From a virus: 27,380 nt of DNA. A model generated the notes under the pieces. It saw only the letters and a program-made list of their open reading frames with translations, was not told the origin of the DNA and searched no databases. Positions 4,098 to 24,132 of this stretch are shown here, one piece after another; within the stretch, counting starts at the first letter, position 1, and every line of letters starts with the position of its first letter. The stretch is from positions 1-27,380 of the IMG/VR virus record IMGVR_UViG_3300042691_032869; one strand, 5' to 3'. The position numbers and the translations under genes were made by a program.

Positions 4098-7000
4098 ATG
4101 CTTCTTTTAACTTCTACTTCGGATCAGATTCTGCTGGATACCAGCAGCTCTTCTGCAATAGAAGTGCATGCATCCTACGTGGATAATCAGTCAGGATCTG
4201 TAACTCCCGGCAGAAAAAATACATCGATTACATCTGCAACTACAACAATCATTGTTGAATCTCCTGCAGATTCCATTCAACGTAACGTTCGTACTTTATA
4301 TATTAAAAATGAAGGTGCAACAAGCAATACGTTAACTGTTGATCACACCAACGGAACGCTTATTAGCACCATTTGGCAAGGTGCTTTGCAGGCAGAAGAA
4401 GAACTAATTCTTGCACAAGATGGTACTTGGCGTGTTTATGACGCTATTGGGCTGGAAAAAGTTTATAACATGCTTGGGGCTACGGGCCCAACTGGACCAG
4501 CCGGAGGCCCTTCTGGGCCAACCGGACCAACTGGACCCTCCGGCGCAACTGGTATTCAAGGTCCTACGGGAGTTACAGGGGCCACGGGTGTTCAGGGTAT
4601 TACCGGTGCTACCGGTGTTCAAGGAACAACTGGACCTACTGGCGCCAGTGGTATTCAAGGGGCCACAGGAGTTACTGGTGTAACAGGCGTACAAGGTGCC
4701 ACTGGTATCCAGGGGACTACAGGGCCTACGGGTGCAACTGGCGTAGAAGGACCAACAGGTGCTACAGGAACTCAAGGGACTACTGGACCAGTAGGTATTA
4801 CTGGAGCTACGGGAATACAAGGGCCAACGGGAGCACAGGGATCCACCGGCGCTACGGGTGCAACTGGCGTTGTTGGAGCTACTGGCCCTACTGGAGTAGA
4901 AGGAGTCACTGGCGCTACTGGAGCTACAGGAGTATTAGGTTCTACCGGAGCAACTGGCATTCAAGGCCCCACAGGTTCCACCGGAGCCACGGGAGTTGAT
5001 GGTGCAACGGGGGTAACTGGCGCTCAAGGCAGTACAGGTGTTCAGGGAACAACTGGCCCTACTGGCGTTGCTGGAGCAACAGGCATCCAAGGAGCAACGG
5101 GCGTTCAAGGAGCCACTGGTATAGCAGGCCCAACTGGCGCCACAGGGGTGCAAGGCGCTACAGGTATTGGTATTACGGGTGCAACAGGGGCCAGCGGTGC
5201 CCAGGGCCCCTCTGGAGCTACAGGCCCCCAAGGCTATTCTTCTAGTATTTTTAAATACAACGCAAAAACCACAATTACGTCCGGCGATCCAGGTACTGGT
5301 TTCATAATTTGGAACAACGGTACACAAACAAGTGCAACCCAAGTCAACATCAGCCATACCACCAGCGACGCAATTGATATTGACATTTTTCTTGCGCAAA
5401 TTACACAGACTGAAACTATCACTATCCAGGATCAGTCTTCAAGTGCTGATTATCAACTTTGGAGAGTATCTGGAACACCGACCAACGTCAATCCTGGAGC
5501 ATCCAACAGTTATTGGACTTATCCGGTAACGCTGGTTAGTTCTGGTGGTACGGGCTCAACAAACTTTGCAAATAATCAAAATTTATTTTTGGCTTTAGTA
5601 AATGGTGCTGAGGGCGCTACCGGACCCACCGGCGCAACCGGAGTTGGCATTACAGGCGCAACAGGTGTCCAAGGCATTACCGGAGCCACTGGAGTACAGG
5701 GCGTTACTGGAGTACAGGGAGCTACCGGGGCCACGGGCACACAAGGCACCACTGGTGCCACTGGTGCCACTGGCGTTGCAGGTCCAACTGGTGCCACTGG
5801 TTTACAAGGGGTAACTGGTGTACAAGGTATTACTGGTGCTACGGGAGCTACCGGTGTAACTGGGGTTCAAGGCAGTACCGGACCTACAGGAGCTACAGGG
5901 TTACAGGGAACCACCGGCGTCACAGGTGTGGAAGGGCCAACGGGGCCAACTGGCGCTACAGGCATTCAAGGAATCACAGGTGCCACTGGTACTCAAGGTA
6001 CTACCGGACCTACTGGTGCCACTGGTTTACAAGGTACTACGGGTCCAACGGGCGTTCAAGGCATCACTGGAGCTACGGGAGTCACGGGTGTACAAGGCCC
6101 AACAGGGGCTTCTGGCCCCACGGGGCCCTCTGGCGCCACGGGTGTTCAAGGAATTACTGGAGCCACTGGCGTTCAAGGCACCACTGGTCCCACAGGCGCA
6201 ACCGGAGTAGGGATTACAGGCGCAACTGGAGTTGAGGGCCCCACGGGAGCTACGGGAGTTATTGGCATCACAGGAGCTACAGGTGTTGGCATTACAGGTG
6301 CTACTGGAGCCACGGGTGTTGTTGCAGATGGGGATAAAGGCGATATAACAGTCACAAGTGGTGGAACTGTTTGGACCATTGATACTGGCGTTGTTACGAG
6401 TGACAAGATTGCTAACGATACGATTGTTGATCTTGACGTAAACACAACCGCAGCTATTGCGGGCACAAAAATAAGTCCTAATTTTGGAAGCCAATTAATA
6501 ACAACGTCAGCCTCTCCTGGTGTTGACTTAACAGGAGCTGTAAACGTTGGCTCTTCTACACAAGGTGTTTTAGCGGTTGGAAGTTTAGGCTTTTCGGGTG
6601 CGCGTGTCGGTGCTAACTTTACTTCCTCGCAAGCACAATACTTCCAAGTACTTTTACAAAATACAAGCAGTAACACAAACGCCAGTTGTGATTTTGTTGT
6701 TTGCAATGACGCTTCAACTGATACAACTAACTACGGCAATTTTGGTATTAATAGTTCTACTTATGCTGGTACTGGCATCTTTAACCAGCCTGGCGCTGTT
6801 TATGTCACAGCAACCAGCGGACCTCTGGGAATCGGCACCACTACTGCGCATGATATTCGTTTTTCTTACAACTCAGAAGCGACAGACGCTCTAACACTTG
6901 GCGCAATTGCCGCCACATTTGGCAAATGCATTAAACCACCAGCAGGAACTGCAGCTGTTAATACGGCCCCATTTGAATTTACTGCTGGTACAAATCTTAC

Positions 7001-7559
7001 CACACCGGAAGCAGGCGCACTTGAGTACGATGGTACTTACTTTTATGCTACGCCAACAACTACGTCAGGACGTGGACACACCGGTGTGTTCCAAACATTC
7101 CGTCTCACAGCTAACGGCAGCGCCATTGGCTCTACCATTGCTGATTACTTTGGTGCCACTAGTTCAATTAACTTGGCCGCTGCAAGTGTCTATGAAATTG
7201 AATATTTTGCATACTTCCAAAAGAACACCGCTGGCACCTTAACCTGGACACATACTGCATCAAGCGCACCTACGCTGATTAGCAGCTTGCTTCGTGCAGG
7301 TCCAGTTACTGGTATTGCCGCTGGTGCCCCAACTACTTTATACACAGGTTCCCGTGGCGCTACCACTGCTGCATTTGGTGCAACTGGTTCAGTTTCTAGC
7401 AACGCTTTTATGGCTTACGAGTTCCGCACACGAGTGATTACTAACTTAGCCACCACCTTTGCGCTGCGGATTACTTGCGGCGCTGGTACAGTAACGCCGC
7501 AGGCAGGTTCATTCTATACTGTGCGTCAAGTTTCTGTCACGACAGGCTCCTTCGCGTAA
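4098..7559 (+). CDS. Collagen-like tail fibre / adhesin
   Basis: This 1153-residue fibre has five parts: an N-terminal beta domain (1-126); a Gly-X-Y collagen block (about 127-378); a globular insert of about 125 residues ([12 protein letters not shown]... to [10 protein letters not shown]); a second collagen block (about 506-741); and a C-terminal region of about 410 residues. The C-terminal region starts with a segment common in phage fibres ([25 protein letters not shown]) and ends in a beta-rich head domain. Thr dominates the Y position (GATG, GPTG, GITG), as in bacterial and phage collagens, which lack prolyl hydroxylation. The protein should trimerise and bind the host surface. The gene has its own short intergenic leader. 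Glycosylation of its Thr residues by the downstream gene is a hypothesis. Confidence 0.92.
4476..5233 (+). repeat. Collagen-like Gly-X-Y block 1
   Basis: This is an unbroken tandem of 9-nt Gly-X-Y units, about 84 triplets, dominated by [12 protein letters not shown] and GTT. Synonymous codons vary between units, so the repeat is kept at protein level rather than as a recent DNA expansion. Confidence 0.93.
5613..6319 (+). repeat. Collagen-like Gly-X-Y block 2
   Basis: This is a second Gly-X-Y tandem of about 78 triplets, separated from block 1 by a globular insert. Its composition is the same (GATG, GVQG, GITG, GPTG), suggesting an ancient internal duplication or one fibre interrupted by an inserted knob domain. 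Confidence 0.93.
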
Positions 7560-7570
7560 TTCATGTAAAC

Positions 7571-7594
7571 TGATGAGCAGAATAAAGCTCATCA
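7571..7594 (+). promoter_or_regulatory. 8-bp perfect hairpin ending at the start codon
   Basis: TGATGAGC (7571-7578) and GCTCATCA (7587-7594) form a perfect 8-bp stem around the 8-nt loop AGAATAAA. The last stem base is the A of the ATG at 7594. In RNA this would bury the start codon. The upstream alternative ATG at 7573 lies inside the 5' arm. There is no U-tract, so it is not an intrinsic terminator. Confidence 0.5.
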
Positions 7595-9213
7595 TGTCAA
7601 AACCGCGTCTGCATCTGGTTGGCATTTTTCATACCCAAGCAACCAGTGAATATTCCCACTGTGCTTTCACAGGTAAAGCTTTACGCTTTCCTAAAATGAT
7701 GCAGGCATATGGCTATGACGTAATTGAATACAGCAACGAAGGCAGTGAAGCGAGTGCAACAGAACATGTCTCTATTTTAAACAAAGAAGAGTTTAATAAC
7801 TTTTACGGAGACCGAAAGAAAACGGATTTTCACGGTGATGACGCAACCATTGGCAGTGAAGGACATCAAGTGTTTGAAGAGCGTTTGATTGTTGAGATGC
7901 GTAAACGCCTGGAGCCAGGAGATATTATTTGCCATCCCTTTGGCCATGCCCACCAAATCCTCATGGAGAAGTTCCCGACTCATCATCATGTTGAAACGGG
8001 GATTGGGTATCCGACTCTGATGCCAAATAGTTTTCGGATTTTTGAGTCGTATGCCTGGATGCATTACCACCAGGGCAAGGAAGACAGGCAAGGAAGGAAT
8101 TATGAATGGGTTGTGCCCAATTACTTTGATTTATCTGATTGGGGCCCCCGCTATGAAGTAGGAGAATATCTTGCTTTTCTTGGGCGTATTTGTTCTGTCA
8201 AAGGTATGGACACAATTAAGGAGTTGGCAAACTACAGCCCATGGCCTATTTTTATTTGTGGTCAAGGCGATCCAACTCCATGGAGCCATCCAAACATTAA
8301 GTACGGTGGTCCACTGACAGGTCGCGAACGATCTGATTTCTTGCGTAGGGCACGTGCAGCTTTAATGCCAACTAACTTCACTGAGCCATTTGGCGGCAGT
8401 GGTGTAGAAGCAATGCTGTGTGGCACTCCGTTGATTGCAGTTGATTATGGCGCTTTCACTGAAACCATTGTTGATGGTGTCACAGGTTTCCGCTGCCATA
8501 CTCTCCAAGATTGGATCGATGCTATTTACGCAGCTGGAGATCTTGACCGTCAAGTAATAGCCTCTACTGCAAGGTCCCGTTACAGCCTGGGAGCATGTGG
8601 AGCAAAATACGACAAGATCTTTAAAGCAATCAACAATCTCAACCATGCAGGTTGGTATCAACTGCGTGAACCATCTGAAATCAACTATGCTGATCTTGAT
8701 ACGGAAGAACGGCCTTTTGCTAAACGTTTGGCAGGCTGGCTTAAAGATAATCTTGATCCAAGTCAGGTATTAGATCTTGGATGTGGGCCAGGTACTTATG
8801 TTGATTGTTTTACTGATCTTGGAATCCCTTGCATTGGGTACGATACTGATCCGCGTGTGGAGGGCAAAGATAATCTGCTCTGCAAAAGTCTTTTTGATCT
8901 TGAGCATACTGCAGATCTCGTCCTTTGCCTGGAAGTGGCAGAACACATTGATGGTGAATCAAACGAAAAGATTGCCGCTACAATGTCAAATGCTTTGGCC
9001 TCTGAAGGAGTGTTAATTTGGACGGCAGCCAAGCCAGGACAAGGTGGAGTTGGGCATATCAATTGTCAACCAAAAGAATATTGGGAAAATTTGTTGGATA
9101 GTACAGGTTTGATTCGTGATTTAGAAATTGAATCCAAGCTACTTTCCTTTATTGAACAGGGTTATCACATGGGTTGGTTTGTCCAAAATCTCCTTGTGTA
9201 CAAAAAACCATGA
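7594..9213 (+). CDS. GT4 glycosyltransferase fused to SAM-dependent methyltransferase
   Basis: This two-domain enzyme has 539 residues from ATG 7594 (546 from the in-frame ATG 7573). The N-terminal ~350 residues are a GT-B/GT4 glycosyltransferase: FLGRICSVKGMD and FICGQGD in the nucleotide-sugar half, and the EPFGGSGVEAMLCGTP motif near residue 263 with the E-x7-E pattern that contacts the sugar-nucleotide. After a short linker, the C-terminal domain (from about residue 390) is a class I methyltransferase: LDLGCGPG SAM-binding motif I, an acidic motif II region (IGYDTDPR) and LVLCLEVAEHI. I prefer the 7594 start because the hairpin ends there and MSKPRLHLVGIFH looks like a native start. It follows the Thr-rich collagen fibre closely, so it may add a methylated sugar to that fibre or another virion protein; acceptor and donor cannot be read from sequence. 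Confidence 0.88.
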   Translation: MSKPRLHLVGIFHTQATSEYSHCAFTGKALRFPKMMQAYGYDVIEYSNEGSEASATEHVSILNKEEFNNFYGDRKKTDFHGDDATIGSEGHQVFEERLIVEMRKRLEPGDIICHPFGHAHQILMEKFPTHHHVETGIGYPTLMPNSFRIFESYAWMHYHQGKEDRQGRNYEWVVPNYFDLSDWGPRYEVGEYLAFLGRICSVKGMDTIKELANYSPWPIFICGQGDPTPWSHPNIKYGGPLTGRERSDFLRRARAALMPTNFTEPFGGSGVEAMLCGTPLIAVDYGAFTETIVDGVTGFRCHTLQDWIDAIYAAGDLDRQVIASTARSRYSLGACGAKYDKIFKAINNLNHAGWYQLREPSEINYADLDTEERPFAKRLAGWLKDNLDPSQVLDLGCGPGTYVDCFTDLGIPCIGYDTDPRVEGKDNLLCKSLFDLEHTADLVLCLEVAEHIDGESNEKIAATMSNALASEGVLIWTAAKPGQGGVGHINCQPKEYWENLLDSTGLIRDLEIESKLLSFIEQGYHMGWFVQNLLVYKKP

Positions 9214-12705: not shown

Positions 12706-13365
12706 ATGGCTGATTTTGCGCATGCCATTAACCTAATTCGTAAATACGAAGGGTTTAACGAACGAGCATACGCAGATCCTGCTACCGGTGCCGAGCCCTA
12801 CACCATTGGGTTCGGCACTCAATATTACCCAGATGGTTCACCTGTTAAAAAAGGCCAGCGCTGTAGTAAAGAAAAAGCGTTGGAATATTTGTTCCACGAG
12901 GTGAGCATTATTGACACGGAACTTCAGAAGCTCAACTTGGGCCTGGATGATCCCATGCGTCAGGCTCTTATCTCATTTGTGCATTCCATTGGTTGGGAAC
13001 CATTCCTGTACAGCGAAATTGTTGACGCCATTGAGCAAGAAGATTTTAAGGTTGCATCAGATTGCATGAGTCGCTGGATCTTTGATGAATACCATCGCGT
13101 GATCGGCAGTCTCATTGATCGCAGGCGAGAAGAAGTTAATTTGTTTCTAAAGGAAATTGACGCTAACCCCTGGTCTTCAACTGAAATTCTTTTGACAGCA
13201 TTTAGGAATTACAGCGGAGCACCTCACCAGGTAAGAGCAGTCCGTCAGCTGGAAGAAAACGTCAATCCTTACGTCCTTTCTGAATTTGCCAATACTTTCT
13301 GCATTGACGAAGATCCTTGGGCTTACGTCCCATCCAACGACTACGGCTCGGTATTTGACGATTAG
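12706..13365 (+). CDS. T4-type lysozyme (GH24)
   Basis: This is a 219-residue muramidase hydrolysing the beta-1,4 MurNAc-GlcNAc bond. The catalytic triad of T4 lysozyme is present: Glu 15 (RKYEGF), Asp 24 (AYADPATG) and Thr 33 (PYTIGFGT). The D-to-T spacing is three residues longer than in T4. The C-terminal lobe has the expected RR-x-E-E-x-x-LF helix (LIDRRREEVNLFL). It exceeds the usual ~165 residues by a C-terminal domain of about 60 residues with an acidic end. No signal peptide is seen, so a holin would be needed for export. It is one of three peptidoglycan hydrolases in the window and has a start-codon hairpin, as T4 gene e does. Confidence 0.92.
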   Translation: MADFAHAINLIRKYEGFNERAYADPATGAEPYTIGFGTQYYPDGSPVKKGQRCSKEKALEYLFHEVSIIDTELQKLNLGLDDPMRQALISFVHSIGWEPFLYSEIVDAIEQEDFKVASDCMSRWIFDEYHRVIGSLIDRRREEVNLFLKEIDANPWSSTEILLTAFRNYSGAPHQVRAVRQLEENVNPYVLSEFANTFCIDEDPWAYVPSNDYGSVFDD

Positions 13366-17333: not shown

Positions 17334-17645
17334 ATGGAAGATCAAATTCCCCCCAGTCAACCACCTGTTCAATTTCCGCCTCAACCAGAAATCACACCTG
17401 AACAGCTTGCTGAACTGAAGGAGCGTGCCCGCCAGCTGGCAATCCAACAAACCATCGCCCAACAAGCTGCGATGCCAAGGCCGCAACCTCAGCCCCAGCC
17501 ACAGGTGGTTTATGTGCGCCGCAACCTGACCGTCGCAGAGTTGATTGTGGTACTTGTGATTGCTTGTGGCATTGTTACCGGCGTTCAGGCTGGCTGGAAT
17601 TTTGCTACCAACTTCTTACCACGCCTTGAGATTAGGGTGAAGTAA
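17334..17645 (+). CDS. Single-pass membrane protein with Pro/Gln-rich N-terminus
   Basis: This is 103 residues. The first 60 are Pro/Gln-rich with a short helix (LAELKERARQLAIQQ) and a Pro-Gln run (PRPQPQPQPQ), then a basic RRN, one transmembrane helix (about 68-88, LIVVLVIACGIVTGVQAGW) and a short polar tail. The positive-inside rule predicts the N-terminus in the cytoplasm. It could be a holin-like, spanin-like or virion membrane protein. It lies far from the lysozyme but upstream of the fibre/endolysin run. No lysis family is recognised, so the function stays open. Confidence 0.72.
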   Translation: MEDQIPPSQPPVQFPPQPEITPEQLAELKERARQLAIQQTIAQQAAMPRPQPQPQPQVVYVRRNLTVAELIVVLVIACGIVTGVQAGWNFATNFLPRLEIRVK

Positions 17646-17698: not shown

Positions 17699-18496
17699 GT
17701 GGCTAACCGCAGAATTAGTGATCTACAGGAAATTGCTGGAATAGATCTGAATGATGCGGATCTGTACACTGTTGTTCAAATTAATGAGCCAGATCCTACC
17801 CTAAGAAATAAAAAACTTACCGTATCTGGCACCAAAGCATATTTAAATATTTACTACCTGCAGCGGACGGGTGGAACCATCAGTGGTTCCGTTCGCATTA
17901 ATGGTGATTTAACTGTTGACAACACAGTAACAACATCTGGAATTGTTGTTACCAACAATGCAACGTTCAGCGGGATTGTTGTACAAAATAATCTTGTTGC
18001 AACGGGGACAATCAACGGCAACACTATTACCGGTAATAGTGTTCAGGGCACCACCGTTGCATCGATCAACTCGGTTACAACAACAGCAACGGGTACATCC
18101 GCAAATTTCACCAGCGGTCGATTCCAGCAGTTATCTGGCGCCACAATCACTGGTGCTCAACTGCAAGTGTTATCGGGTGTTTCACACACACTAACAGGTA
18201 ACACCCTTCGGTATACAAATATAAGTGGCGCCACCATTACCGGGGACACAATTACAGCTGTATCTGGTGTTTTCAATAGTGTTTATGCCAATAACATTGT
18301 CTACAGCGGCACTGTTGTATCAGGTGACCTTCAAGTATCCGGCAGTTCTTCTGCTCTGATTTTCAAAAGCAAAATTACCATTACCAGTGGAGTTTTAATT
18401 GAGAGCGGAGTTAATGGTCTATCGGCTTCCCCTGTAGCAATCGCATCTGGAATCACAGTGACCGTCAGCAGTGGCTCCTCTTGGAGCATAGTCTGA
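17699..18496 (+). CDS. Tail fibre-like protein with beta-repeat shaft
   Basis: This 265-residue protein starts at GTG 17699 (ANRRISDLQEI...). The N-terminal ~45 residues (ISDLQEIAGIDLNDADLYTV) look like a fibre-attachment module that I associate with cyanophage fibres; this is from memory. The rest is Ser/Thr/Gly/Val/Asn-rich with short imperfect repeats (SGATITG, NGNTITG, GTVVSGDLQVSG) typical of a beta-helical or triple-stranded fibre shaft. There is no enzymatic motif. It opens the adhesin cluster 17699-23062. TATAAT lies at 17664-17669 and a TGTATACA palindrome just before the start, either of which may be regulatory. Confidence 0.78.
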   Translation: MANRRISDLQEIAGIDLNDADLYTVVQINEPDPTLRNKKLTVSGTKAYLNIYYLQRTGGTISGSVRINGDLTVDNTVTTSGIVVTNNATFSGIVVQNNLVATGTINGNTITGNSVQGTTVASINSVTTTATGTSANFTSGRFQQLSGATITGAQLQVLSGVSHTLTGNTLRYTNISGATITGDTITAVSGVFNSVYANNIVYSGTVVSGDLQVSGSSSALIFKSKITITSGVLIESGVNGLSASPVAIASGITVTVSSGSSWSIV

Positions 18497-18523
18497 TGTT
18501 AAAATTAGAATAAAAATAAAGTC

Positions 18524-18874
18524 ATGGCATACGGAAATGTAAAGGTTGATACTATTAGTTACTCAACCGTTACAGGCGATGTAGTACTCAGTGTATCAGG
18601 CATTTTTGTTGCTCAGAGTACTGTCAACGTTTTTGATCCAGTTACAAAAAATATCTCAACAACCGGTACCATCTCTGGTAGCACTTACAAAGTCAGCGGT
18701 AATGTTGTTGTCATCAGTGGTTCCGGTGATGTTCGTCCGTACGGCTTATATTCTTTCCCGAATACCAGTGGTGTGAGCGGTCAGTTCGTAGTAAGCAGCG
18801 GTGACGGTACATCTTATTGGGCAACAATTAATACTAGTGGTTCAACGCTTGGCCGTATTGTGGCATTAAATTGA
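18524..18874 (+). CDS. Short fibre/adhesin paralogue A
   Basis: This is 116 residues, beta-rich (Ser, Thr, Gly, Val). The middle (NISTTGTISGSTYKVSGNV, then VISGSGDVRPYGLYSFP) matches the same region of the next gene nearly residue for residue in spacing, so the two are tandem paralogues. The start ATG is preceded by an AT-rich leader with AGAATAAA at 18507-18514. Probably a small fibre tip or adaptor subunit; this is inferred from composition and neighbours. Confidence 0.72.
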   Translation: MAYGNVKVDTISYSTVTGDVVLSVSGIFVAQSTVNVFDPVTKNISTTGTISGSTYKVSGNVVVISGSGDVRPYGLYSFPNTSGVSGQFVVSSGDGTSYWATINTSGSTLGRIVALN

Positions 18875-18875
18875 G

Positions 18876-19256
18876 ATGACAGTCCTTAAGGTTGACAATT
18901 TAATTTGTGAGGTTGCAGGAACTGATTTAACAGTTGTTTTGCCTTCAGGTTTGCCGAGTAGCGGCGACTACGCATCTGCAACAGGATTTGTTGATCCAAC
19001 GACTAACTCAATCTCAACAACAGGAGTTATTTCGGGAGCAGCCTATAAAACCAGCGGTAACGTTACGGTCATCAATAGCGCTGGTGCAATCAGTCCATAT
19101 GGTTTGTATTTGTTGCCAACAGGTTACGGCACTGTTCCAGTTGGATACGGAATCAGTGGTTACTGCTTAAGTAAAGTCAGCGGAAATCAAACGTCTTGGG
19201 AACCAATCTCAACGATTAAAACTGTTGCATTTTCAGCTGCATTAGGCAAGTGTTAA
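18876..19256 (+). CDS. Short fibre/adhesin paralogue B
   Basis: This is 126 residues, starting one base after the previous stop (TGAGATG). The core SISTTGVISGAAYKTSGNV, then VINSAGAISPYGLYLLP parallels paralogue A. The N-terminus (MTVLKVDNLICEVAGTDLTV) and C-terminus differ, so a tandem duplication was followed by divergence at both ends. Probably a partner or alternative subunit in the same fibre assembly; no known enzymatic feature. Confidence 0.72.
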   Translation: MTVLKVDNLICEVAGTDLTVVLPSGLPSSGDYASATGFVDPTTNSISTTGVISGAAYKTSGNVTVINSAGAISPYGLYLLPTGYGTVPVGYGISGYCLSKVSGNQTSWEPISTIKTVAFSAALGKC

Positions 19257-19281
19257 GATAGAAAAAAGCCAGACGTTAAAC

Positions 19282-19617
19282 ATGCCCGAAACATTTTCAA
19301 ATAGTGGTGTACAGCTAACAACCACCGGTATTACTGACGTTTATCAAGCACCGACAAGTTCAGGTGCACGTGCAGTTGTTTTATCGTCTCTCGCTGCAAA
19401 TGCAACTGGCACTGTCGCAGTTAATTACAGCTTGAATTTAACTGACAGTGGCAACACCTTAATTGCTGTAATCGCTAAGGATATTGCTGTCCCAGCTAAC
19501 GCAACCCTGGAAGTCATTCCTAATAAAGTTGTTTTAACTTCTGGTCAGAAGCTGCGGGCCACATCGAGTGCAGCAAGTGGTATTCATGTTGTGACATCGG
19601 TCCTTGAAGTGACTTGA
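19282..19617 (+). CDS. Small beta-rich virion-type protein
   Basis: This is 111 residues of alternating hydrophobic beta strands (ARAVVLSSLAANATGTVAV, then LIAVIAKDIAVPANATLEVI and GQKLRATSS), like a compact beta-sandwich. The size and pattern resemble small head or tail decoration proteins, but I cannot name the family. It sits between the paralogue pair and the propeller proteins, and its stop is only four bases before the next start, so it belongs to the same operon. Confidence 0.72.
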   Translation: MPETFSNSGVQLTTTGITDVYQAPTSSGARAVVLSSLAANATGTVAVNYSLNLTDSGNTLIAVIAKDIAVPANATLEVIPNKVVLTSGQKLRATSSAASGIHVVTSVLEVT

Positions 19618-19621
19618 TCTC

Positions 19622-20554
19622 ATGGCTGCTGAATTTTTTGAAGCTGGCTATATAGGAGCCAGGTTTGCTTTTATTGGTAAAACCTGGCCTGGTATTTGGC
19701 GTGTAAAAGAGGTTGCTGATCGTTTAACGATGGGGATCTGGCCAGCAGCGTGGAGTGTTGCTGGCGGTCTTTATGATGGGAAGGCTTTTACCGTAGGAGC
19801 ACAAAATACACATCCACAAGGTTTATTTTTTAAACCAGATGGAACTAAATTTTATGTAGCTGGGTCCACTGGAGATGCAATTTTTCAATACACATGTTCT
19901 ACTCCGTGGGATTTAACAACAGCTTCTTACGATAATATTTCTTTTGCTGTAGAGGCGCAAGAAAGTGATTTAAGGGGCGTTTATTTTAAACCTGATGGCA
20001 CTAAGTTTTATATCATAGGACCCACTAGTGACAGTGTATTTCAATACACATGTTCAACCGCATGGGATATTAGTACAGCATCGTATGATGGCGTATCATT
20101 TAGCGTAAATGGACAGGATCCTTCATCTAGGGATTTAACATTTAAACCTGATGGCACTAAGTTTTACATGGTGGGAAGCAGCAGTAATTCTGTTTTTCAA
20201 TACACATGTTCTACTCCGTGGGATATCAGCACCGGATCATATGATTCCAAAACTTATCGATTTGATTTAAATAGAAATTCAAGTGAAACCGATCCTCAAG
20301 CTTTTATTTTTAACTTAGACGGGACAAAATGTTATATGACTGGAACAAGCAAAAATACAGTTTATCAATACAGTTGCAGTACTTCATGGGATGTCAGTAC
20401 AATTACTTATGATGGTATTAGCGTTCCTGTTGTAGATCCTGGTTTTTCAAATGTAGGTATTTCTTTTAGCACAGAAGGCACAAGCCTCTATGTAATGCAA
20501 AACTCAAATAATACAAATTCAAGAATAAAACAACTTTCAACTACGTTATTATAA
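19622..20554 (+). CDS. Single-unit beta-propeller-like tail adhesin
   Basis: This is 310 residues. An N-terminal module (GYIGARFAFIGKTWPGIW) is shared in pattern with the next gene and may attach it to the virion. From about residue 42 the chain is a half repeat (AAWSVAGGLYDGKAFTV), four full ~52-residue repeats (64-116, 117-168, 169-224, 225-274) and a final half repeat (275-310). The full-repeat consensus is G-L-x-F-K-x-D-G-T-K-F-Y-x-x-G, then VFQYTCSTxWD and a strand ending in V-x-x-Q. Each full repeat has one Cys in S/TCST; the terminal halves lack it. N- and C-terminal halves making one blade is the classic Velcro closure, giving five blades. Probably binds a surface glycan; no catalytic residues seen. 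Confidence 0.78.
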   Translation: MAAEFFEAGYIGARFAFIGKTWPGIWRVKEVADRLTMGIWPAAWSVAGGLYDGKAFTVGAQNTHPQGLFFKPDGTKFYVAGSTGDAIFQYTCSTPWDLTTASYDNISFAVEAQESDLRGVYFKPDGTKFYIIGPTSDSVFQYTCSTAWDISTASYDGVSFSVNGQDPSSRDLTFKPDGTKFYMVGSSSNSVFQYTCSTPWDISTGSYDSKTYRFDLNRNSSETDPQAFIFNLDGTKCYMTGTSKNTVYQYSCSTSWDVSTITYDGISVPVVDPGFSNVGISFSTEGTSLYVMQNSNNTNSRIKQLSTTLL

Positions 20555-20557
20555 ATA
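20550..20557 (+). promoter_or_regulatory. Exact T4-type late -10 sequence (TATAAATA)
   Basis: TATAAATA overlaps the stop of the first propeller gene and lies 15 nt before the start of the second, with an AGGA Shine-Dalgarno sequence at 20561-20564. It is the only exact match noticed in an intergenic position. The expected start point would fall near the Shine-Dalgarno sequence, so it may simply be AT-rich leader. Confidence 0.33.
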
Positions 20558-20572
20558 TAAAGGAATAGAAAC

Positions 20573-23062
20573 ATGAAAGGAAATTACATTGGTAAAAAGC
20601 CCAGTGGTTATGGGGCTACCAAAGAAGGGCAAAAAGGCATCTGGGAAATTTATGACCAATCTCAAGGTGTTAAAGACATTGCATGGGCTGCACAACCATG
20701 GAATGTAATTGATGGTTTTTACGGCCAAAAGTCAAGCACACTTTTGGGAATTAGCGGTTTAATCTCAGTAAACGACGTAGCTTTTAAAACTGACGGGACT
20801 AAATTTTATGTTATTTCTCCAAATACTGATCGTATACACCAATACAGTTGCTCTACTGCATGGGACATAACAACTGCTTCGTATGATGAAAAAAGTTTCT
20901 CAATAACAGCTCAAGAAACTCTTTCTACTGGCTTATACTTTAAACCTGATGGCACTAAATTTTATATCGTAGGAACAACAAGTGACACTGTATTTCAATA
21001 TTCTTGTTCTACAGCATGGGATGTAAGCACTGCTTCTTATGACAGTAAATCATTTAGTGTAATAACACAAGAAAGTGCTCCAAGTTCAGTATTTTTTAAA
21101 TCGGATGGTACTGCATTTTATATTGTAGGTACAACAAACGATACCGTATATCAATACAGTTGCTCTACTGCTTGGGATGTAAGCACTGCGTCTTACGCCA
21201 GCAAATCGTTTGCCGTTGTAACGCAAGAAACTAATCCAGCAGGATTATTTTTTAAAGATGATGGAACTAAGTTTTATGTTGTAGGCTCAGCAAGCGACAG
21301 CATATACCAATACAGTTGTTCTACTGCATGGGATGTCAGTACTGCATCTTATGATAGTAAATCGTTTAACGTTCACTGGGCTGGCTTTGCCGTGGCTGGA
21401 TTATTTATATCTAGCGATGGCACAGTTGTAAATGTAATTGAAAGCACAACAGTAAGAGTTTATAAATTTACTTTAGGCACAGCTTGGGATATTAGTACGG
21501 CATCAGTGCCAAGGGGTGTTTTTTCGGTTAATGCACAAGAAACAATTCCAAACGATTTTGTATTTAAGCCTGATGGGACTAAGTTTTATATTGTAGGACA
21601 GACAACTGACACCGTATATCAGTACAGCTGCTCTACTGCTTGGGATGTAAGCACTGCATCTTATGACAGTAAATCATTTAGTGTAACAACACAAGAGACT
21701 GACCCAAGAGGGTTATTTTTTAAATCTGATGGCACTAAGTTTTATGTTGTAGGACAGACAAATGACACCGTATATCAATACAGCTGTTCTACGGCATGGG
21801 ATGTTAGTACAGGTTCTTATGACAGTAAATCATTTAGTGTAGGAGGACAAGAAACAACCCCACAGGGTTTAGCTTTTAAAGATGATGGCACTAAGTTTTA
21901 TATTGTAGGAGTAACAAATGACACCGTATACCAATACAGCTGTTCTACCGCATGGGATGTAAGCACTGCATCATACGACAGCAAGTCATTTAGTGTAAAT
22001 GGACAGGATGCAACGCCAGTTGGGTTATTGTTTAAAACAGATGGTACCACTTTTTATGTTGTAGGAACAACAACTAACGCTGTACATCAATACAGTTGCT
22101 CGACGGCATGGGACGTAAGTACGGCTTCTTATATCAGGGGTAGCATCGAAGTGCAAGATGATAGCCCCATCGGCGTAGCATTCAAGGATGATGGGACTAA
22201 ATTATATATCATTGGACAAGTTGGAAAAACTATAACTTCTTACACACTCGCTGTTGCATGGAAGATTAATCCAATTGGTTTTGATGGTTATAACTACAAA
22301 GCAAATTTAGCGGAAACAAATGGACTAGCGGATATTGTTTTTAATGAGTATGGAACTATTTTTTATGTCCCAGGGAGGGCGCCATATTCCATCACTCAAT
22401 ACAAATGCACTACTCCATGGGATTTAAGTACGTCTTCACTTTTTAATGCAGATTACTCAGAAGTTTACTCTAAATTTTATTTAACAGGACAAACAGAGTC
22501 AACATTAACCGCTCTGTATTTTAAGCCCGATGGAACTAAGTTTTATACTTTAGGAAGCACGGCTGATACCATATATCAATACTCTTGTTCTACAGCGTGG
22601 GATATTAGTACGGGTTCTTATGATAATAAATCATTTGGCGTAGCAACACAAGAAACCACTCCAGTTGGATTATACTTTAAACCTGATGGAACAAAATTTT
22701 ATATTATAGGAACAACGGCTGATACTGTATTTCAATATTCTTGTTCGACTGCGTGGGATGTCAGTACAGCATCATACGATAGTAAATCATTTAGTACAAC
22801 GTCACAAGATGGCACTCCTAGTGCTTTATATTTTAAAGATGACGGCACTAAATTATATGTTATGGGGACAGCAACTGATGCTGTATTTCAATACAGTTGC
22901 TCAACGGCATGGGATATAAGCACTGCTTCTTACGATTCTATTAGTTTGTCTGTTGCTAACCAAGATGGGGCAGCAGTAGGGGTCACAATTGGTTACGGCG
23001 GCTCACTGCTTTACATAATGGGAAACACAAACTTTAAAGCCTATCAATATCGTTTAACATAA
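20573..23062 (+). CDS. Triple-unit beta-propeller-like tail adhesin (15 blades)
   Basis: This is 829 residues, start supported by AGGA eight bases upstream. The N-terminal module (NYIGKKPSGYG...GIW) resembles that of the preceding gene. A half repeat (QPWNVIDGFYGQKSSTLL) leads into fifteen repeats of about 52 residues, beginning near 66, 118, 170, 222, 273, 326, 378, 430, 482, 532, 584, 644, 697, 749 and 801. Repeats 1-4, 6-9 and 11-14 carry the Cys motif (mostly YSCSTAWD; KCTTPWD in 11). Repeats 5, 10 and 15 lack the Cys (VYKFTLGTAWD, SYTLAVAWK, YQYRLT). The chain ends in mid-repeat, matching the N-terminal half. This 4+1 rhythm, seen once in the neighbour, argues for three five-bladed propellers in a row. 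Probable receptor binding; not a known enzyme. Confidence 0.8.
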   Translation: MKGNYIGKKPSGYGATKEGQKGIWEIYDQSQGVKDIAWAAQPWNVIDGFYGQKSSTLLGISGLISVNDVAFKTDGTKFYVISPNTDRIHQYSCSTAWDITTASYDEKSFSITAQETLSTGLYFKPDGTKFYIVGTTSDTVFQYSCSTAWDVSTASYDSKSFSVITQESAPSSVFFKSDGTAFYIVGTTNDTVYQYSCSTAWDVSTASYASKSFAVVTQETNPAGLFFKDDGTKFYVVGSASDSIYQYSCSTAWDVSTASYDSKSFNVHWAGFAVAGLFISSDGTVVNVIESTTVRVYKFTLGTAWDISTASVPRGVFSVNAQETIPNDFVFKPDGTKFYIVGQTTDTVYQYSCSTAWDVSTASYDSKSFSVTTQETDPRGLFFKSDGTKFYVVGQTNDTVYQYSCSTAWDVSTGSYDSKSFSVGGQETTPQGLAFKDDGTKFYIVGVTNDTVYQYSCSTAWDVSTASYDSKSFSVNGQDATPVGLLFKTDGTTFYVVGTTTNAVHQYSCSTAWDVSTASYIRGSIEVQDDSPIGVAFKDDGTKLYIIGQVGKTITSYTLAVAWKINPIGFDGYNYKANLAETNGLADIVFNEYGTIFYVPGRAPYSITQYKCTTPWDLSTSSLFNADYSEVYSKFYLTGQTESTLTALYFKPDGTKFYTLGSTADTIYQYSCSTAWDISTGSYDNKSFGVATQETTPVGLYFKPDGTKFYIIGTTADTVFQYSCSTAWDVSTASYDSKSFSTTSQDGTPSALYFKDDGTKLYVMGTATDAVFQYSCSTAWDISTASYDSISLSVANQDGAAVGVTIGYGGSLLYIMGNTNFKAYQYRLT
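20768..23062 (+). repeat. Tandem ~156-bp repeats encoding 15 propeller blades
   Basis: Fifteen consecutive units of about 156 bp (last one half length) are clearly related at DNA level, sharing near-identical stretches such as GGCACTAAGTTTTA and GCATGGGATGTAAG. Every fifth unit (5, 10, 15) is divergent and Cys-less. Such identity favours recombination and copy-number change. Confidence 0.9.
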
Positions 23063-23084
23063 GCACTCGTGAATCTATAAAGTT

Positions 23085-23115: not shown

Positions 23116-24132
23116 ATGACAATAAAATTCACAGATGCTGCTAAATACTACGACGAATTGCCACATCAGGTAAGTGCGTGGAATTGGCTCCAGGGGGAAG
23201 TAGCTCCTTCAACCCTGGAGCGTTTTGCTGACAAATATCGCAGCGCACCAAAACCCATTGCTTACGACAACGACTGGAATGGTGTCATGGCAGCAGGTAA
23301 AGCTGCTGGTGCCAAATATCCAGAAGTTGTTGCTGCCCAATGGGCACTAGAATCCTCATGGGGTAAACATGTTTCAGGTACTCACAACTACTTTGGATTA
23401 AAAGGTGCAGGTACCAACGTTAATACACAAGAGTTTATCAATGGTCAATGGGTGACTATCAATGCTGGCTTTATTAATTTCCCTGATCTTTATACTTGCA
23501 TTTGTTATCTTGTCGATCGCTGGTACAAAGACTACAGTCGATACCAAGGAGTCAACCGAGCCAGCAGTCGAAATGAATGTGCCAATCTCCTTGTCAAAGA
23601 AGGGTACGCAACAGACCCCAACTACGCCACTAAACTAATTCAAATCATGGACCGGGAGTTAAAAACTCCTGGTACCACACCCGCAAAACCAACCGATCCC
23701 CCTGCAGCGCAACGGTTTAACCCGTGGAGTCCATTCACCTATAAAATTACACCTCACATTACGTATGGTGAATTAACACTGAATCAAGAAGCACGACGTT
23801 TTACTAAACAACATCAGTGTGATACAGCATTAGAACTGTGTCGTTTCTTGGAACGAGTGCGTAATGAATTTGGTGGTAAGCCCATTATTATCACCAGTGG
23901 CTCAAGGCCTGAACCCATCAATACACAAGTGGGTGGCGCTAAAAACAGTGAACATACCTTCAATGAATCATCTAAAGGAGCAGTAGATTTTTACATTGAA
24001 GGTGCCAGCATTTATGCTGTGCAAGAATGGTGTGATTTTAACTGGCCTTTTTCAGTTGGTTATGGCGCACCTAAGGGATTTGTGCACCTGGGAATCCGAC
24101 CGGGCAAACCAAAAGTCAGATGGGATTATTGA
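23116..24132 (+). CDS. Bifunctional endolysin: GH73-like glucosaminidase plus M15-like peptidase
   Basis: This 338-residue protein has two catalytic domains. Residues about 50-180 resemble GH73 N-acetylglucosaminidases: VVAAQWALESSWGKH with Glu 79 as the likely acid, HNYFGLKG (90-97) and the late YATDPNYATKL (164-174). A Pro/Thr-rich linker (184-200) leads to a peptidase M15-like domain: ITSGSRPEPINTQVGG, then NSEH (His 280), GAVDF (Asp 291) and FVHLG (His 324), the zinc ligands of D-Ala-D-Ala carboxypeptidase/endolysin families. It would cut both glycan strands and peptide stems. No signal peptide is seen. It follows the propeller adhesins after a start-codon hairpin, so it may be a tail lysin or the lysis endolysin. 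Confidence 0.9.
   Translation: MTIKFTDAAKYYDELPHQVSAWNWLQGEVAPSTLERFADKYRSAPKPIAYDNDWNGVMAAGKAAGAKYPEVVAAQWALESSWGKHVSGTHNYFGLKGAGTNVNTQEFINGQWVTINAGFINFPDLYTCICYLVDRWYKDYSRYQGVNRASSRNECANLLVKEGYATDPNYATKLIQIMDRELKTPGTTPAKPTDPPAAQRFNPWSPFTYKITPHITYGELTLNQEARRFTKQHQCDTALELCRFLERVRNEFGGKPIIITSGSRPEPINTQVGGAKNSEHTFNESSKGAVDFYIEGASIYAVQEWCDFNWPFSVGYGAPKGFVHLGIRPGKPKVRWDY

Follow-up and report, generated by a model that had tools for sequence, protein, structure and literature searches.

We analysed a 27,380-base virus record in full (the window), which is probably a fragment. It contains two adjacent plus-strand genes for repeat proteins of 310 and 829 residues, A (19622..20554) and B (20573..23062). 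The gene order matches that of Synechococcus phage S-EIV1, and the virus encoding A and B is best explained as an S-EIV1-like cyanophage. Upstream on the same strand lie a gene for a fibre-like protein (17699..18496; 46% identity to S-EIV1 protein 78221-731 over the N-terminal 200 columns), which marks the left edge of an exchanged cassette, a gene for a short protein (18524..18874) whose N-terminal 30 residues are common, by blastp, to the S-EIV1 fibre-like protein 768-2573, and a gene for another short protein (18876..19256) that is conserved next to the pair and syntenic in relatives L098, L175, L177 and L181. A 111-aa protein (19282..19617, plus strand; phrog_1276) is encoded directly 5' of the pair in syntenic relatives, and its homologues are annotated as structural or hypothetical and nothing else. 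The right-hand anchor of the cassette is an endolysin with glucosaminidase and M15 peptidase domains (23116..24132, plus strand; PF01832, PF08291), one of three separate endolysin-like genes within the window, the others occurring at 927-1589 and 12706-13365. Further upstream, at 4098-9213, genes for a collagen-like tail fibre of 1,153 residues and, after it, a glycosyltransferase of 546 residues sit between genes that closely adjoin in S-EIV1; the glycosyltransferase may modify the fibre.

Both proteins are built from a 52-residue repeat with the family consensus GLFFKPDGTKMYVVGSTNDTVYQYSLSTAWDISTASYDSKSFSVSSQET. By cyclic profile alignment, in which entry and exit were allowed at any repeat column, A comprises an N-terminal half unit, four full units that each carry a cysteine, and a C-terminal half unit without cysteine that covers repeat columns 1-20 from residue 279 onward. 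This is the 4+1 pattern of the original prediction, in which the Cys-less half repeat completes the N-terminal half. The chain begins with a segment of low model confidence (residues 1-42, 19622..19747) bearing a G-I-W...W-P motif that occurs elsewhere and is proposed to be an attachment adaptor. It continues with a d strand (residues 43-66, 19748..19819; repeat columns 29-52) predicted to complete blade 5, followed by blades 1-4 with a cysteine in each (residues 67-278, 19820..20455) and by the Cys-less abc half of blade 5 (residues 279-310, 20456..20551). All of these segments are on the plus strand; some 42 residues precede the propeller and none follow it.

Using an alignment of 44 five-unit segments from the window and from viral sequences, we obtained an AlphaFold model of A with a pLDDT of 89.1 and a pTM of 0.85, comprising strands for exactly five four-stranded blades. 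Ring closure was read from strand counts and DSSP of this predicted model. Strands 65-70, 76-81, 86-92 and 101-109 and those that continue the series make up four complete four-stranded blades, after which come three further strands (276-282, 288-294 and 301-309), with an extra N-terminal strand (E44-57) spare for closing the ring. This set fits a five-bladed ring with a shared closing blade, which is the usual way in which propeller rings close. The model thus gives good support to A as one predicted five-bladed propeller, its fifth blade common to the N- and C-terminal strands.

Protein B repeats the pattern. An N-terminal half unit (residues 42-67) is followed by 15 units starting at residues 68, 120, 172, 224, 276, 328, 380, 432, 484, 534, 587, 647, 699, 751 and 803, the last being an abc half unit. 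The cysteine column of the SCST motif reads CCCCL three times over, and the threefold 4+1 pattern that had been claimed for B was recovered, with leucine for cysteine in units 5, 10 and 15. At this point the sequence is LGTAWD in unit 5 and LAVAWK in unit 10, as against CSTAWD or a close variant in the other units, and the chance of three Cys-less units among 15 falling in one modulo-5 class is P = 0.011. At the DNA level, a 156-bp period runs through 20939-22132 and 22520-22936. The unit map divides B into propeller 1 (residues 42-302, 20696..21478), propeller 2 (residues 303-560, 21479..22252) and propeller 3 (residues 561-829, 22253..23059), all on the plus strand. An AlphaFold model built from seven sequences has 15 blades, mostly good, with a pLDDT of 79.1 and a low whole-model pTM (0.46). 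Confidence drops below 50 at the N terminus, in a short loop (627-631) and otherwise only at residues 312-315 in propeller 2 and 567-573 in propeller 3. The last two stretches are the joints expected between five-blade propellers, and these dips support a division into 3 x 5 blades. Sequence periodicity, relatives and the confidence dips together support a model of B as three five-bladed propellers. Structure prediction of the pair was confident for A, with its five blades, and less so for B, where 15 blades came with a low global score and dips at the joints. A fold search with the B model returned multi-domain alignments, mostly with large rmsd, and was discarded.

The divergence of every fifth repeat extends to the family, whose data leave no doubt about the pattern. 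In 207 sets of five units, the abc part of unit 5 scores 46.6 bits and its d strand 14.5 bits, compared with 54-58 and 35-41 bits in units 1-4; a weak d strand is expected in the fifth unit if that strand is supplied from the start of the ring. At the SCST cysteine column, units 1-4 of the family have leucine in ~80% and cysteine in ~14%, and cysteine accounts for 2% in unit 5. Judged by these alignments, the cysteine is a lineage variant of the usual leucine and does not characterise the family as a whole. The idea that it forms disulfides or binds metal was dropped, since leucine stands there in most relatives. In 54 of 72 proteins, a unit resembles its counterparts at the same position in other propellers slightly more than it resembles units at other positions, which fits whole-propeller duplication with some later homogenisation.

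The repeat was compared with propeller profiles and with phage proteomes, as the original prediction had suggested. Against Pfam, A matched SGL at 33.8 bits (cut-off 26.3), and B matched SGL at 90.2 and Lactonase at 52.2 bits, both above the cut-off. SGL, YVTN and Lactonase propellers, mainly of cellular proteins, have six or seven blades per ring, and the Pfam name of the last is Lactonase 7-bladed. Matches to LPD24, Phage_TTP_11, WYL_2 and others were discarded, since they covered short, generic segments of a sequence rich in repeats. The phage proteomes yielded a viral family with members in cyanophages, roseophages and uncultured phages; those from annotated aquatic phages mostly carry the label hypothetical; the N-terminal 58 residues of A, as sole query against the phage collection, gave no match. 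The same search patterns found 89 viral stretches versus one locus among 84,980 cellular genomes in a single-protein scan. That sole cellular match lies on a marine Euryarchaeota MAG contig (NHGE01000016.1, L094), possibly a viral contig binned into the MAG.

Unit numbers were compared across the viral loci that A and B had retrieved and across annotated phages, translated and all counted alike, giving 126 non-redundant complete ORFs with about three or more units' worth of signal each. At a threshold of 20 bits, 105 of the 126 contain a multiple of five (5 units, n=33; 10, n=53; 15, n=14; 20, n=3; 25, n=1; 45, n=1), for which the binomial probability against a 20% expectation, ignoring relatedness, is ~1e-52. 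A score threshold was used because raw counts of 6, 11 and 12 mostly represent weak extra half units at linkers; unit-score thresholds from 18 to 30 bits gave 73-85% multiples of five. The single 45-unit ORF (2,364 aa, L185:1690-8781) would, by its repeat count, form nine five-bladed propellers in one chain. About 17% of the ORFs have a unit number not divisible by five, among them an eight-unit gene in the syntenic relative L177 and a four-unit group. The group comprises long ORFs (L058, L064-L069 and L073) with four recognisable units only, at ~60-aa spacing, and their fifth blade may be too divergent for recognition. The L177 ORF (467 aa) has 8 units versus 10 in the closely similar L175. 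Either two units have truly been lost, or near-identical repeats collapsed during assembly; for now the ORF stands as a counter-example.

The propeller pair lies in a variable cassette (17894..23079), delimited by a blastn comparison with L095, the nearest relative. The two sequences are 85.7% identical up to 17893 and 84.2% identical from 23080, and between these flanks a 79-bp match alone aligns. Aligned flanks around an interior almost without alignment indicate that ~5.2 kb was swapped as a block, window 17894-23079 against L095:4004-8964, where the slot holds fibre-like proteins in place of the propellers. The exchanged slot of L095 also contains a 176-aa ORF (L095:5635-6162) that by eye has the look of an HNH/AP2 homing endonuclease, and this putative enzyme might promote slot exchange. 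Among 80 loci anchored on the endolysin, the repeat occupies the slot in 7 and a homologue of the S-EIV1 fibre-like proteins in most others. Between the same flanking genes, S-EIV1, where a search for A and B gave no match, encodes the fibre-like protein 768-2573, its C-terminal part resembling an S74-type chaperone by eye. The syntenic order runs through homologues of the genes at 17334, 17699, 18524, 18876 and 19282 to two propeller genes and the endolysin. Of these propeller genes, the downstream one has 15 units in all syntenic relatives; the upstream one has 5 in the window, 10 in L098 and L175, 20 in L181 and 8 in L177.

Indications of function come from relatives and from the locus itself. 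Fusions of homologues to regions of tail-fibre, tail-protein or S74 chaperone type occur in L010, L013, L041, L046 and L052. An ORF for a PF16778-type tail assembly chaperone lies directly 3' of 48 of 155 propeller ORFs (31%); for other ORFs with a length of at least 250 aa, the figure is 19 of 545 (3.5%). No PF16778-type chaperone adjoins A and B in the window, where it is the tail-module location and the cassette that are found. In Lentibacter phage ICBM2, the propeller gene is placed between two tail assembly chaperone genes, at an end of the genome which, according to its authors, varies and encodes tail fibres (PMC6775973). Within the blades, the BC and DA loops are variable (2.80 and 2.73 bits) versus conserved AB and CD loops (1.24 and 1.09). 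By convention, BC and DA share one face of a propeller, and AB and CD the other.

A and B have an N-terminal adaptor in common, G-I/V-W ... W-P/A, which in other phages is also met in front of glycine-rich domains. Examples are L165:4859-5857, from the same genomic slot, and L195:2746-3756, in which a GxW...WP adaptor is followed by a glycine-rich domain (PF21722); we read this pattern as interchangeable adhesive ends on one adaptor. Two ORFs at L019:8946-10987 combine the same adaptor with another repeat, RG-x-GG ... TIASTGNATDFGDLT, that gave no match against Pfam and is possibly another propeller type. Taken together, genomic context, fusions and the chaperone linkage of relatives suggest that A and B are most probably exchangeable tail parts that grip the host cell, in keeping with the single- and triple-headed adhesin pair first proposed.

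Other readings of the blade number and of the function were weighed against this one. The best PDB sequence match of the repeat is 1l0q, a seven-bladed YVTN propeller. The blade number might be other than five, or the 15 blades of B might close into a single larger ring or into two (such as 7+8). An arrangement of this kind has been predicted for 15 near-identical WD40 blades of the fungus Gymnopus (PMC9218822). However, A has five units in all and a confident five-blade model, B diverges at units 5, 10 and 15 and loses confidence at five-blade joints, and counts in the family are mostly multiples of five, making a different number highly improbable. Neither a continuous solenoid nor another blade number appeared in the structure predictions, and the predicted model of A and the counting in fives across the family argue that each 4+1 set would be a five-bladed propeller, as originally suggested.

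As to function, the propellers could be enzymes borne on a tail or fibre, such as a lactonase, a gluconolactonase or a polysaccharide hydrolase, whose task is to break down the host envelope instead of binding it. SGL and Lactonase are indeed the best Pfam matches, above cut-off, but the matches fall on generic repeat columns, the rings here have five blades rather than the six or seven of those families, and a single asymmetric active site would not be obvious among near-identical blades. Even though phage endosialidases contain propellers (PMC4901313), we regard an enzymatic role as unlikely. A and B could also be virion decoration, internal or secreted proteins without a role in host recognition, to which the window lends some colour in having no chaperone gene beside them and an upstream 111-aa protein whose homologues carry only structural or hypothetical labels. 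Fusion to tail-fibre domains, chaperone linkage in relatives, cassette exchange and the filling of the slot elsewhere by fibre-like proteins all speak against this reading, and we give it little credence.

We therefore consider it very likely that A and B are tail adhesins of an S-EIV1-like cyanophage, consisting of one and three closed five-bladed propellers and swapped as a cassette. The short N-terminal adaptor would attach each protein, with one propeller (A) or three (B) behind it. Each propeller would open with a d strand and close with an abc half blade, which would explain why every fifth repeat differs, and its variable face, formed by the BC and DA loops, would be turned to the host surface. 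Propellers would be swapped, or multiplied by whole-propeller steps, as a cassette. We infer that the proteins sit on the virion and bind the host surface, that their ligand may be a glycan, and that multiple heads serve avidity. We further speculate, with rather less than even confidence, that phages tune avidity by whole-ring steps (1 to 9 heads per chain) in an exchangeable slot, and that selection for ring closure keeps multiples of five although near-identical 156-bp repeats should gain or lose single blades. If so, the family would allow counted repeat amplification to be studied as a natural experiment.

Among known structures, the listed PDB fold matches of A, many of them seven-bladed WD40 or YVTN propellers, superpose poorly (TM ~0.5 or less) and name no relative. 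Homology of the blade sequence to YVTN, SGL and Lactonase propellers (1l0q, PF08450, PF10282) is recognisable, but the rings here have five blades, and the PDB sequence search gave no match to tachylectin, a five-bladed lectin. The closest viral model to A is that of gene 51 of Lentibacter phage vB_LenP_ICBM2 (TM 0.81, rmsd 1.4). Its product and proteins of Roseobacter CRP phages belong to the repeat family of A and B, with one propeller (ICBM2) or several; all are annotated as hypothetical only, and the cobavirus paper makes no mention of a propeller.

Five-bladed propellers in phage receptor-binding proteins are already a known kind (PMC4901313). In gp45 of Staphylococcus phage phi11, the receptor-binding protein contains one whose fifth blade is closed by an N-terminal strand and three C-terminal strands (PMC4901313). 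A resembles it, by predicted fold only, in its five-bladed platform and manner of closure; in gp45, however, each chain has a single propeller, with a helical stem before it and a C-terminal tower after it, whereas A and B have near-identical blades and B has propellers in tandem. A phmmer search of PDB sequences for phi11-type homology found no match. The same source lists the putative receptor-binding proteins P2 of PRD1, a distorted five-bladed ring, and gp131 of phiKZ, with seven blades, and describes no tandem multi-propeller array there (PMC4901313). The original prediction that no described phage receptor-binding family has this repeat holds, within the literature searched, for the repeat and for tandem multiples, but five-bladed propellers as such were known from phi11 gp45 and PRD1 P2. 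The highly repetitive propellers of Pereira and Lupas also have many near-identical blades per chain, with counts above or below the lineage norm, and arise by repeat amplification without a counting system of its own (PMC9218822). Their counts are many, in contrast to those of the A/B family, which are mostly multiples of five. The family offers a recognisable, countable putative adhesin module with which to ask whether adapting phages adjust the number of receptor-binding heads per chain and why the amplification of repeats ends at multiples of five blades, and its regular single-chain propellers may be useful binding scaffolds. Within the literature searched, a viral family of near-identical-blade propellers, single and in tandem and mostly counted in fives, appears to be new.
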